Shown: positions 35,025-38,789 of the stretch, piece after piece | How positions within the stretch are numbered: position 1 is the first letter of the stretch | How the letters are laid out: the number at the start of each line of letters is the position of its first letter | Assembly: GCF_027924965.1 (NCBI RefSeq) | Contig: NZ_AP027056.1 | Coordinates: forward strand, 62,001 to 126,000 | Origin: Limnohabitans sp. TEGF004 | Lineage (GTDB): Bacteria; Pseudomonadota; Gammaproteobacteria; Burkholderiales; Burkholderiaceae_C | Reading direction: 5' to 3' | DNA length: 64,000 bases | Translations under genes and position numbers: made by a program | Notes under the pieces: generated by a model | The model's input: only the letters and a program-made list of their open reading frames with translations | What the model was told of the DNA's origin: nothing | Databases searched by the model: none

Positions 35025-36680
35025 TCATGCCTCCGCACTGCGGCCTTTCATGGCAAAGATGCCCTGCGGACGTTTTTGGATAAACACAATGATGAACACC
35101 AACACCGCAATCTTGGCTAGTACGGCACCGGCCACGCCTTCGAGCAATTTGTTCATCAAGCCCAAACCCACCGCTGCGTACACCGTGCCGGCCAGTTGGC
35201 CCACGCCACCCAGCACCACCACCATGAAGGCGTCGACGATGTAGCTTTGACCGAGGTCTGGCCCCACGTTGCCAATTTGGCTCAGCGCACAACCGGCCAA
35301 GCCAGCAATGCCGCAACCAAGTGAGAACGCATAGGTGTCAATGCGTGCCGTGTTCACGCCCAAAGCCGACGCCATGGGACGGTTTTGTGTCACACCGCGC
35401 ACAAACAAACCCAAGCGTGTTTTGCTGATCAACAGCGTCATGCCCACCAACACAAACACCGCAAAGCCAATGATGATCAAACGGTTGTAGGGCAGCGAGA
35501 GGTTGGCCAGCAGTTGCACGCCACCGCTCATCCATGAGGGGTTTTCAACACCGACGTTTTGCGCACCAAAAATACTGCGCACGCCTTGCATCAACACCAA
35601 GCTGATGCCCCAAGTGGCTAGCAATGTTTCGAGCGGCCGGCCATACAAGTGGCGCAACACCAATCGCTCCAACACCGCGCCCACGAGCGCTGCAGCAAGA
35701 AACGAGACAGGTACGGCGACCAACAAATACGCGTCAAACATGCCCGGTAAATACTGGCGGAACAAACCTTGCACCACGTAGGTGGCGTAAGCGCCAATCA
35801 TCATCAGCTCGCCATGAGCCATGTTGATGACACCCATCAAACCGTAGGTGATGGCTAAACCCAATGCCACGAGCAACAAGATAGATCCGAGGCTAATGCC
35901 TGTAAATAAAGCGCCGAGTTTTTCACCCCAGTTCAACGCGGCCTGAATGGTGAGCAGTGAGGTTTGCAACTGCGCACGCACTTGCTTGTCTTCTTCTTGG
36001 CTTAGTCGTTGATTGAGCAAAAGTTGGGTATCGGGGGTTTGGCTGTCGGCCAAAGTTTTGGCCGAAGCCATGCGTTCGTCAGCCTTGTCGCTGTTTAACA
36101 AAATCGCAGCGCGTGCCAACAGCATTTGTTTTCTCACGCCTTCGTCGGATTCACTCGCGAGCGCTTTTTCAAGCATGACCAATTTGGTTGGGTCAGGTTC
36201 TTTCAGCACCGACTTGGCCGCTTGCACACGCAACGCTGCGTCTGGGCTGAGTAATTGCAAGGCAGACAAAGCGGCGTCAATTTCGCCGCGCATGCGGTTG
36301 TTGTTGATCACGTCTTCTGCGGTGCCGGGCAGGGCGGTGGCGTCACCGCTCACAGGGTCGGTGGCTTTGCCATCGCGCACCACCAGTACCTGTGTGCCAT
36401 TCACTTTCACGGCGTCATCGGCCATGGCTTGTAAGAAGGCGGCGGTTTGTGCGTCGGGTGAAGCCAGTGCTTTTTGCAGAGCGCTCACGCGTGCATCGGT
36501 GTCGCCCAGCGTGAGTGCGCGTGTTTGATCCGCGGTCAGCGCCCATGCGCTGGATTGACCGAGGAAGGCAATGGCCAATCCGCAAGTGATGCGCACAACG
36601 AGACCGCGACATGCTGCGCTGCGCTGTTGCAGCGTGGGCATGCGCGTCGAAATAGAAAAACAAGTCATCCAAATTCCCAT
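35025..36680 (-). CDS. urtB: Urea ABC transporter permease UrtB with N-terminal helical extension
   Basis: A 551-residue LivH-like permease. As in other proteobacterial UrtB proteins, a signal peptide is followed by a periplasmic helical domain of about 230 residues, rich in Ala/Leu/Asp (for example LGDTDARVSALQKALASPDAQTAAFLQAM), before eight TM helices with AITYGLMGVINMAHGELMMIGAYATY. The open frame reaches 36710, but those codons lie inside a terminator hairpin (36681-36708). ATG 36680, or 36668, is therefore the likely start. Confidence 0.92.
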   Translation of the reverse strand: MGIWMTCFSISTRMPTLQQRSAACRGLVVRITCGLAIAFLGQSSAWALTADQTRALTLGDTDARVSALQKALASPDAQTAAFLQAMADDAVKVNGTQVLVVRDGKATDPVSGDATALPGTAEDVINNNRMRGEIDAALSALQLLSPDAALRVQAAKSVLKEPDPTKLVMLEKALASESDEGVRKQMLLARAAILLNSDKADERMASAKTLADSQTPDTQLLLNQRLSQEEDKQVRAQLQTSLLTIQAALNWGEKLGALFTGISLGSILLLVALGLAITYGLMGVINMAHGELMMIGAYATYVVQGLFRQYLPGMFDAYLLVAVPVSFLAAALVGAVLERLVLRHLYGRPLETLLATWGISLVLMQGVRSIFGAQNVGVENPSWMSGGVQLLANLSLPYNRLIIIGFAVFVLVGMTLLISKTRLGLFVRGVTQNRPMASALGVNTARIDTYAFSLGCGIAGLAGCALSQIGNVGPDLGQSYIVDAFMVVVLGGVGQLAGTVYAAVGLGLMNKLLEGVAGAVLAKIAVLVFIIVFIQKRPQGIFAMKGRSAEA

Positions 36681-36708
36681 AAAAAAGGGGAGGGCAGTGC
36701 CCTCCCCC
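36681..36708 (-). terminator. Intrinsic terminator between urtA and urtB
   Basis: On the minus strand GGGGAGGGC, a 3 nt loop and GCCCTCCCC form a 9 bp GC-rich stem followed by TTTTTT. It lies within the 52 bp between the urtA stop and the urtB start. It should let only part of the urtA transcripts continue into urtBCDE, so that the binding protein is made in excess over the membrane complex. Confidence 0.85.
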
Positions 36709-36731
36709 AAGTCGATCCCTCGGAGAAAGGT

Positions 36732-38006
36732 TTACTTCTTCACGGGCTCATCGGGCTTGGATGCATTGCCTTCGATGAAGGGGCTCCATGGCTTGGCTTT
36801 CACAGGGCCTGGTGTTTTCCAAACTACGTTGAACTGGCCGTCGGCCTTGATCTCGCCGATGAACACCGACTTGTGCAAGTGGTGGTTCTTCTCATCCATC
36901 TTGCTGACGATGCCGCTGGGTGCCTTGAAGGTTTGGCCGGCCATCGCTGCAATCACTTTGTCGGTGTCGGTGGACTTGGCTTTTTCAACCGCTTGCTTCC
37001 ACATGTTGATGCCGATGTAGGTGGCTTCCATCGGATCGTTGGTCAAAGGCTTGTCTTTGTGACCTGCGATGTTCTTGGCCTTGGCGTAGGCAGACCACTT
37101 CTTGATGAACTCGTCGTTGGCTGGGGTCTTGATGCTCATGAAGTAGTTCCATGCCGCCAAGTGACCGACCAAAGGCTTGGTGTCCACGCCGCGCAGTTCT
37201 TCTTCACCCACTGAGAAGGCGACCACAGGCACGTCTTTAGCTTTCAAGCCCGCGTTGCCGAGTTCTTTGTAGAACGGCACGTTGGAGTCGCCGTTGATGG
37301 TGGACACCACAGCGGTTTTGCCGCCAGCAGCAAACTTCTTGATGTCAGCCACGATGGTTTGGTAATCGCTGTGACCAAACGGGGTGTACTTCTCGTCGAT
37401 GTCTTTGTCTGCCACGCCTTTGCTCTTGAGGTAGGCGCGCAAAATTTTGTTGGTGGTGCGCGGGTACACATAGTCGGTGCCCAACAAGACCCAACGCTTG
37501 GCAGCACCACCGTCTTTGCTCATCAAGTAGTCCACAGCGGGGATGGCTTGTTGGTTGGGCGCAGCACCGGTGTAGAACACGTTTTTGCTGAGCTCTTCAC
37601 CTTCGTATTGCACGGGGTAGAACAGCAAGCCATTCATTTCTTCCACAACAGGCAACACCGATTTGCGAGACACAGATGTCCAGCAACCGAAGATGACAGA
37701 CACTTTGTCTTGGCCGATCAGCTGCTTGGTTTTCTCTGCGAACAAGGGCCAGTTCGAAGCGGGGTCCACCACGACGGGTTCGAGCTTCTTGCCCAACACG
37801 CCGCCCTTGGCGTTGATTTCGTCGATGGCCATGAGCACGGTGTCTTTCAACACAGTTTCGGAAATGGCCATGGTGCCGGACAAGCTGTGCAGCACGCCCA
37901 CTTTGATGGTGTCAGCGGCCAGCGCTTGTGGCGCAATCACAAATGAGCCAACGGACAGTGCCGCAGCAGCGGCCAAAGCCTTCAGGTTTCCTCGACGATT
38001 CATCAT
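36732..38006 (-). CDS. urtA: Urea ABC transporter substrate-binding protein UrtA
   Basis: A 424-residue periplasmic binding protein with a signal peptide ending near APQALA/ADTIKVG. The Leu/Ile/Val-binding fold has ligand-binding segments in VGVLHSLSGTMAISE, GCWTSVSRKSVLPVVEEMNGLLFYPVQYEGEE, GTDYVYPRTTNKI and NDPMEATYIGINMWKQAV. ATG 38006 has GGAG about 10 bp upstream. It is transcribed from a sigma-54-type promoter (38075-38090), and a terminator follows the gene. Confidence 0.96.
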   Translation of the reverse strand: MMNRRGNLKALAAAAALSVGSFVIAPQALAADTIKVGVLHSLSGTMAISETVLKDTVLMAIDEINAKGGVLGKKLEPVVVDPASNWPLFAEKTKQLIGQDKVSVIFGCWTSVSRKSVLPVVEEMNGLLFYPVQYEGEELSKNVFYTGAAPNQQAIPAVDYLMSKDGGAAKRWVLLGTDYVYPRTTNKILRAYLKSKGVADKDIDEKYTPFGHSDYQTIVADIKKFAAGGKTAVVSTINGDSNVPFYKELGNAGLKAKDVPVVAFSVGEEELRGVDTKPLVGHLAAWNYFMSIKTPANDEFIKKWSAYAKAKNIAGHKDKPLTNDPMEATYIGINMWKQAVEKAKSTDTDKVIAAMAGQTFKAPSGIVSKMDEKNHHLHKSVFIGEIKADGQFNVVWKTPGPVKAKPWSPFIEGNASKPDEPVKK

Positions 38007-38074
38007 GGGGGTTCACTCCAAAAATTAAGGGTTGGTTCGGCGCTCGCGGTAACGGTGCGCTTCACAACAACCAT

Positions 38075-38090
38075 CGCAAAGCCTGTGCCA
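38075..38090 (-). promoter_or_regulatory. Sigma-54-type promoter of urtA
   Basis: On the minus strand TGGCACA-GGCT-TTGCG has the invariant GG and GC dinucleotides 10 bp apart and matches the -24/-12 consensus well. The predicted transcription start is near 38064. This gives a leader of about 58 nt with a GGAG ribosome binding site. The match agrees with nitrogen control of urea uptake through NtrC. Confidence 0.7.
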
Positions 38091-38153
38091 ACGTGCGTTT
38101 CTCCTAGGCGAAAAATGTCTTCGCTATAAGAAACATTTCAAGCATGGCGTCCA

Positions 38154-38262
38154 TGCACCAAGACAGTTCAATTCAAGGGCAATGCACCAAGGTGGCGCGA
38201 CTTGCGGTGCGCTTATGCGTGCACCAAGACGGGTTTCGTGCACCAAAGCATGCACTTGGTGC
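38154..38262. promoter_or_regulatory. Cluster of NtrC-like half-sites between urtA and ureA
   Basis: Four direct copies of TGCACCAA (38154, 38183, 38220, 38239) and one inverted copy TTGGTGC (38256-38262) lie within 109 bp. NtrC recognises GCACC-N5-GGTGC-like dyads. The first two copies have partner halves with one mismatch each: GCACC-AAGAC-AGTTC and GCACC-AAGGT-GGCGC. The last two halves form GCACCAA-N9-TTGGTGC. The cluster lies 60-170 bp upstream of each sigma-54-type promoter, as an enhancer would. Confidence 0.6.
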
Positions 38263-38282
38263 GTGTGGCTCAGCGCAAAAGA

Positions 38283-38298
38283 GGGCACGCAAGTTGCA
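38283..38298 (+). promoter_or_regulatory. Sigma-54-type promoter of ureA
   Basis: GGGCACG-CAAG-TTGCA matches TGGCACG-N4-TTGCW at all but one consensus position, with GG at 38284-38285 and GC at 38296-38297 exactly 10 bp apart. The predicted start is near 38309, only about 4 nt before the ureA ATG at 38313. It faces away from the urtA promoter of the same type. Confidence 0.75.
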
Positions 38299-38312
38299 TA
38301 GTCAAAACCACT

Positions 38313-38615
38313 ATGGAACTCACCCCCCGCGAAAAAGACAAGCTCTTGATCTTCACTGCCGCCTTGTTGGCCGAACGTCGACAAGCCCGTGGCTTGAAGC
38401 TCAACTACCCCGAGGCCGTGGCCCTCATCAGCGCTGCCGTGATGGAAGGCGCACGCGACGGTCAAACCGTGGCGCAACTCATGAGCGCAGGCCGCAACGT
38501 GCTGACCCGTGCCGACGTGATGGACGGCGTGGCCGAAATGATTCCTGACATCCAAGTCGAAGCCACTTTCCCCGACGGCACCAAGCTCGTCACTGTGCAT
38601 CAACCCATTGTTTGA
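38313..38615 (+). CDS. ureA: Urease gamma subunit
   Basis: A 100-residue urease structural subunit. It starts [14 protein letters not shown] and contains [21 protein letters not shown] and [15 protein letters not shown], all canonical. The open frame extends upstream to 38202, but the family start is at 38313. No ribosome binding site precedes it, and the predicted sigma-54 start is about 4 nt upstream, so it may be translated from a nearly leaderless mRNA. Confidence 0.96.
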
Positions 38616-38621
38616 AACGCT

Positions 38622-38789
38622 ATGAAAAAACTTCTCTCTCTTTTTGTTTTGTTGCCCACGCTTGTTTTGGCCCACGAGGGCCACGGCATAGAAGGCGCTT
38701 CGCACTACCACGCCACCGATGTGTGGGGCTTTGTGTCCATCGCTGTCGCGGCTGCGGTGGTGTGGTGGTTCACTGGTCGCGACAAATAA
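38622..38789 (+). CDS. 55-residue His-rich membrane protein inside the urease operon
   Basis: A short gene between ureA and ureB, 6 bp after the ureA stop. It encodes a signal-like N-terminus (MKKLLSLFVLLPTLVLA), a metal-binding-looking segment (HEGHGIEGASHYHATD) with four His and two Glu, one TM helix (about 34-50) and a short basic tail. If the first part is cleaved, the His segment lies in the periplasm next to the membrane. It could bind nickel or copper. The gene is not part of the standard urease set; no known family is assigned. A 12 bp gap to ureB and same-strand packing support expression with urease. Confidence 0.75.
   Translation: MKKLLSLFVLLPTLVLAHEGHGIEGASHYHATDVWGFVSIAVAAAVVWWFTGRDK

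Follow-up and report, generated by a model that had tools for sequence, protein, structure and literature searches.

In Limnohabitans sp. TEGF004 (genome size 2.77 Mb, two contigs), the genes for urea import and for urea hydrolysis are transcribed away from one another on either side of a short spacer. The question raised by this arrangement is whether the spacer controls both gene sets jointly and, if so, through which regulator. The window, that is, the whole stretch of DNA analysed here, is 64,000 nucleotides in length, and positions are counted from its first base.

Several published systems bear on this question. In Burkholderia cenocepacia H111, which belongs to the same class of bacteria, an ntrC mutant cannot use urea, and ureA, ureC, urtB, urtD and other genes fall strongly in expression; 95% of the genes changed in this mutant are also regulated by sigma-54 (PMC5491218). 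The genes are the same as those of the window, their NtrC dependence was found by RNA-seq (and by qPCR for ureC) and the urease cluster is among the common sigma-54 and NtrC targets; however, the locus numbers in the available tables of this paper suggest a single gene run rather than a divergent pair (PMC5491218). Herbaspirillum seropedicae resembles the window in having a sigma-54 promoter upstream of urtA, for which Ntr control has been proposed, but its urt genes lie upstream of ure and are not divergent from them (PMC3093359). In a sigma-54 survey, urease genes, chiefly of alpha- and betaproteobacteria, are among the predicted targets (PMC12316311), and a comparative paper lists ure and urt as NtrC targets in Alteromonadales, Oceanospirillales, Rhizobiales and Rhodobacterales, with betaproteobacteria unnamed in its available text (PMC5343134). 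The regulatory idea considered below is supported but expected, and is mostly known biology.

Genes and promoter elements of the spacer

The spacer (38007-38312) is 306 bases long and separates urtA (minus strand, start 38006) from ureA (plus strand, start 38313). The genes, promoter elements and predicted leaders are as follows.

36732..38006, minus strand: urtA, first gene of urtABCDE (urea ABC transporter); TIGR03407, 603.5 bits against a cut-off of 492.75
38007..38064, minus strand: predicted urtA leader, 58 nt; +1 placed 12 bases past the C of the -12 element
38090-38075, minus strand: urtA -24/-12 element TGGCACAGGCTTTGCG; GG 38089-38088, GC 38077-38076, 10 nt between
38283..38298, plus strand: ureA -24/-12 element GGGCACGCAAGTTGCA; GG 38284-38285, GC 38296-38297, 10 nt between
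38309..38312, plus strand: predicted ureA leader, 4 nt, without a Shine-Dalgarno (SD) sequence; +1 = 12 bases past the C of the -12 element
38313..38615, plus strand: ureA, urease gamma subunit, first gene of the urease cluster; NF009712, 175.7 bits against a cut-off of 123, match from residue 1

The initial annotation, made from the sequence alone, had assigned these genes to urtABCDE and a urease operon, and the assignment holds for all ten proteins scanned: UrtA, UrtB, UrtC, UrtD and UrtE as well as UreA, UreB, UreC, UreE and UreG score above the curated cut-offs of their own NCBIfam models. It had also placed two opposed -24/-12 elements in the spacer. Both are present, with GG and GC exactly 10 nt apart on either strand. 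With GG and GC fixed, the flanking positions are right at 7 of 8 sites in the ureA element and at 6 of 8 in the urtA element, and the TGGCAC-N5-TTGC core of the latter is perfect.

Chance expectations were taken from dinucleotide-preserving shuffles of this 306-base sequence. On the plus strand, an element equal to or better than that of ureA (at least 7/8, GG and GC fixed) occurs in 0.42% of 5000 shuffles; on the minus strand, one equal to or better than that of urtA (at least 6/8) occurs in 2.7% of 5000; and two opposed elements of at least 6/8 each occur in 2 of 5000 (0.04%). Genome-wide, the -24/-12 word with at most one mismatch has 258 + 277 = 535 matches, against 144 + 129 = 273 for the reversed pattern. 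A lone match is therefore weak in this genome, and conservation is the stronger evidence.

Two other parts of the urea locus can be noted. Between ureA and ureB, a 55-residue ORF (38622-38789, plus strand) begins like a signal peptide, contains an HEGHG motif and ends in a hydrophobic tail. Its match to DUF6732 is weak (21.9 bits, below the cut-off of 27), and it has tblastn relatives in 42 loci, a count that includes its own genome and some loci twice. In UrtB (35025-36710, minus strand), the N-terminal ~265 residues lie outside the 291-position UrtB model.

Half-site cluster and nitrogen regulators

Between the two elements lies a cluster of short repeats, given here with their conservation in the 16-genome clade alignment described below.

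38154..38161, plus strand: TGCACCAA copy 1, partner in a degenerate dyad (11/14); clade conservation 0.84
38183..38199, plus strand: TGCACCAA copy 2 (half-site 38183-38190) within the best dyad, TGCACCAAGGTGGCGCG (12/14); half-site conservation 0.79
38220..38227, plus strand: TGCACCAA copy 3; clade conservation 0.80
38239..38246, plus strand: TGCACCAA copy 4; clade conservation 0.66, with an alignment gap there in 5 of the 16 clade genomes
38255..38262, minus strand: inverted GCACCAA, CTTGGTGC then G; conservation 0.55

Four copies of TGCACCAA and an inverted fifth had been reported previously. The four stand, and all share one direction; the fifth, on the opposite strand, has 7 letters of the word right, not all 8, and is poorly conserved. 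The initial annotation had further cited GCACC-N5-GGTGC dyads as known NtrC sites; no perfect copy of this dyad is found in the spacer, and the genome's three perfect sites are all elsewhere. The dyad consensus of NtrC is TGCACCA-N3-TGGTGCA. Measured against it, half-sites are strongly enriched in the spacer and the best dyad reaches 12/14, with no perfect dyad.

The clustering is non-random. At least four copies of TGCACCAA/TTGGTGCA occur in 0 of 20000 shuffles (mean 0.045), and three of only four same-direction TGCACCAA pairs spaced 5-35 bases apart in the genome lie in this spacer. The word itself is common genome-wide (342 copies, against 84 of the reversed word), so single copies mean little.

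Upstream of the predicted ureA start, the half-sites begin at 155, 126, 89 and 70 bases; measured from the urtA start, also predicted, their far ends are at 97, 126, 163 and 182 bases. Copy 1 is nearer the urtA start and copies 3 and 4 are nearer the ureA start, while copy 2, which has the best dyad partner, is midway, with 126 bases to either start. Enhancers usually act over such distances. A single cluster for both promoters would fit this arrangement, and we infer that the cluster is shared.

The regulators that such a cluster would need are encoded in the genome. RpoN is present in one copy (TIGR02395, 426.3 bits against a cut-off of 277.35). NtrC (TIGR01818, 673.1 bits against a cut-off of 558.6) has receiver, sigma-54 activation and Fis-type HTH domains, NtrB scores above its cut-off (NF008293, 305.8 bits), and the gene order is glnA, NtrB, NtrC. 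A solved-structure search with NtrC matched NtrC-family relatives mainly over the receiver and activation domains and yielded nothing on DNA recognition. As a separate observation, the genome has many response regulators and a few other sigma-54 activators for its 2.8 Mb (29 NtrC-model stretches; L081-L088, G000).

The sole canonical NtrC target examined, glnA, is marked in a similar manner. Upstream of it are the dyads TGAACCATTTTGGTGCA (13/14) and TGCACCAAAATAAAGCA (11/14), together with TGGCACAGAAACTGCA; the dyads lie ~150 bases from a -24/-12 element. A canonical target in the same genome thus carries similar words, an internal control that does not depend on the urea locus. The glnA region differs from the spacer in that no second opposed element of at least 6/8 is seen beside glnA and in that its leader is of conventional length (~41 nt, worked out by hand).

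Another of the genome's enhancer-binding proteins could instead act on the cluster at the same sigma-54 promoters. Further proteins match the NtrC model over the activator domain (29 matching stretches genome-wide, with one protein over the cut-off), and the half-sites are in direct rather than dyad order. Nonetheless, such an activator is very unlikely given that the half-site agrees with the NtrC consensus, that similar dyads precede glnA and that NtrC governs the same genes in B. cenocepacia (PMC5491218).

Conservation in related genomes

Relatives were drawn from two sources. The first comprises the 80 best of a larger number of urtA loci in named genomes, 20 of them with ureA and 18 of these 20 with a spacer of less than 350 bases; the second comprises 61 genomes of the window's genus, its own included, 46 of them with ureA. 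Among the matches listed, the best-ranked urtA relative is that of Limnohabitans sp. T6-5 (95% identity), and the other high ranks are mostly Comamonadaceae. A spacer was kept if it was no longer than 500 bases and its divergent urtA reached 60% identity, which gave 58 including that of the window (18 named, 40 genus), of which 56 are distinct (identical pairs L030/L124 and L038/L131). Left out were four genus loci whose stretch lacks a divergent urtA (L101, L108, L133, L136), two in which the divergent gene is 44-45% identical (L102, L122) and two named loci with spacers of 1.6-1.8 kb (L002, L010).

The initial annotation had suggested comparing the spacer in related genomes, and the comparison favours its reading. 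When GG and GC are required, together with at least 5 matches at the 8 other positions, 58/58 spacers have a urtA element and 52/58 a ureA element (absent from G012, G051, G019, G027, G035 and G040). GCACCAA half-sites number 95 in the 58 spacers, against 5.7 expected from shuffles; 58 of the 95 fall in the 43 spacers outside the window's clade, and 10 of the 58 spacers have none. In the clade alignment (16 genomes, including G033, in which no urtA is found beside ureA), no other 16-mer of the spacer is as well conserved as the two elements. Mean column conservation is highest in the ureA element (0.93), followed by the urtA element (0.875), and is 0.57 in the stretch between them (38091-38282). 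Strings resembling -24/-12 elements are frequent genome-wide and could in principle arise by chance in intergenic DNA of mixed composition; this explanation has a negligible probability, being refuted, as far as sequence can do so, by the shuffles and by conservation in 58 spacers.

Retention of both elements in 52 spacers also bears on whether the cluster serves both promoters. One promoter alone may depend on it, the other having its own activator contact or being constitutive. The six spacers that retain a urtA element without a ureA element would fit this arrangement, as would the uneven distances of copies 1, 3 and 4 from the two starts, with only copy 2 midway. The joint retention of the elements nevertheless makes dependence of a single promoter unlikely, and a shared cluster is the preferred reading.

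The urtA element is associated with the divergent layout. Among the named loci, an element of at least 6/8 is found in 18 of the 20 with ureA in the stretch and in 5 of the 60 without (Fisher p ~1.5e-11, a value that ignores shared ancestry), which suggests that sigma-54 control of urtA goes with divergence from ureA in this sample. A general sigma-54 control of urtA in these relatives was rejected on the same 5/60 count. Within up to 2.5 kb upstream of urtA in loci without ureA, an element of at least 7/8 is found in 4 of the 57 loci with at least 1 kb available, one of them more than 1 kb away.

The predicted ureA leader and a model for the locus

The part of this analysis that is new is the predicted 4-nt ureA leader without an SD sequence, a length already implied by the start at 38309 in the initial annotation. 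The predicted +1 is uncertain by 1-2 bases. UreA has an AUG start, and no 4-base SD match is found at -20..-4. The urtA leader, by comparison, contains GGAG, an SD-like 4-base match ending 9 nt ahead of the ATG.

Predicted ureA leaders in the 46 ureA-bearing genomes of the genus are 1-4 nt in 16 genomes and 25-45 nt in 22, with no element scored in eight. In the 20 named loci with ureA they are 12-59 nt, with the exception of L070 (3 nt, from a weak 5/8 element). In a midpoint-rooted tree of NtrC, whose gene is far from the urea locus, 15 short-leader genomes form one group (support 100/99). The tree includes the 27 of 46 genomes with a near full-length NtrC among the loci retrieved, and the remaining 12 comprise 11 with long leaders and one without an element; the sixteenth short-leader genome (G004) has no orthologous NtrC among the matches and is absent from it. 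Within the clade, the bases from the element to the ATG are conserved at background level (0.55), yet there are always 11-14 of them. Three genomes with leaders of 25-26 nt (G023, G043 and G002) have a very similar element, so the simplest origin of the short leader would be a deletion of ~21-25 bases after the -12 element.

No 4-base SD match precedes ureA in 15 of 17 short-leader loci (exceptions G059 and G011) or in 35 of 41 long-leader loci. As the SD is missing in most long-leader loci too, its absence seems older than the short leader, and selection may have allowed the leader shift rather than favoured it. The 5' ends of the short-leader genes are less folded, with a median of -2.0 kcal/mol in 16 genomes against -6.25 kcal/mol in the 22 genomes compared with them. 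Since these ends are shorter as well, the difference is not taken as evidence.

Two observations were made in passing on the relatives' ureA starts. In the close relative G033 (locus L136), in which no urtA is found beside ureA, the ureA element and its 4-nt spacing are retained. In six long-leader loci (L001, L016, L017, L025, L032 and L009), a GCACCAA ends one base ahead of the ureA ATG and might be a further NtrC site.

Transcription of ureA could also, or mainly, start at an upstream sigma-70 promoter, giving an ordinary leader and making the near-leaderless mRNA minor or absent. By eye, some clade members have a CACAAT upstream of the -24 element, a possible -10 sequence, but it is missing from the window and its nearest relatives. 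Moreover, a longer transcript would likewise carry no SD match ahead of the window's ureA, and it is the -24/-12 element that is the best conserved stretch of the spacer. We regard the sigma-70 alternative as rather unlikely, though it is the most probable of those considered. From sequence, the conserved 1-4 nt layout predicts that the urease mRNA is driven by sigma-54 and has almost no leader.

Leaderless mRNAs are not rare in Burkholderiales: in Cupriavidus metallidurans, 4.67% of primary starts give a 5' UTR of less than 5 nt, and similar reports are cited for B. cenocepacia (PMC7563307). Translation of leaderless mRNAs is not inhibited by kasugamycin (PMC5230787). The predicted ureA leader would resemble those of C. 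metallidurans in length, but nothing in the available text of that paper ties leaderless mRNAs to sigma-54 promoters or urease (PMC7563307). A transcription-start paper on S. meliloti describes leaderless transcripts and RpoN motifs separately in its available part. No report of a near-leaderless sigma-54 urease start was found in the literature on leaderless mRNAs with NtrC or sigma-54, a weak absence since most subscription journals lie outside the coverage.

The genome was also scanned for other near-leaderless sigma-54 genes (GGCAY-N5-TTGC with an ATG after 11-17 bases; ATG starts only). This gave 27 matches, none of which, besides ureA, combines a 7-8/8 element with a convincing gene start. 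Three candidates with 7-8/8 elements (L171, L191 and L193) were discarded, their ORFs comprising just 3-12 codons. L171 (G000:C1:606117-606132) is an 8/8 match, TGGCACGCGTCTTGCA, with an ATG at near-zero-leader distance and a 12-codon ORF.

A model for control of the locus can be proposed. Under nitrogen limitation, NtrB phosphorylates NtrC. NtrC~P would bind the TGCACCAA cluster at 38154-38246, ~70-180 bases from both starts, and activate the sigma-54 polymerase poised at both of the opposed -24/-12 promoters, such that urea import (urtABCDE) and urea hydrolysis (ure) would rise together. For ureA in the window's clade, the mRNA would start about 1-5 nt ahead of the ATG and be translated without an SD, nearly leaderless, whereas the urtA message would keep its ordinary 58-nt leader.

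With a probability of roughly 0.85, then, the spacer is a two-way nitrogen-starvation control region in which NtrC and sigma-54 govern urt and ure jointly, with a predicted near-leaderless ureA message in the clade. The elements, the non-random clustering, the conservation, the presence of RpoN, NtrB and NtrC and the similar sites at glnA are direct in the sequence; from them we infer NtrC binding, activation and the service of both promoters by one cluster. The NtrC and sigma-54 control of urt and ure put forward in the initial annotation thereby gains support. Against the main reading, there is no perfect dyad, the four strong half-sites share one direction, and conservation is poor at copy 4 and at the inverted copy.

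More tentatively, and with the odds somewhat against it, the ureA promoter moved once against the start codon in this clade and was kept there by selection, so that starvation yields a near-leaderless urease message beside an SD-led urtA message. If true, import and hydrolysis share a transcriptional switch and differ in translation initiation, and urease output would be tied to the ribosome pool of starved cells. Related species with predicted leaders of 1-4 nt and of 25-45 nt would be natural replicates for the effect of near-leaderlessness on a starvation enzyme. In the Comamonadaceae, the sequence of this locus supports the view that NtrC and sigma-54 jointly control urea uptake and urea use where the two gene sets are divergent.
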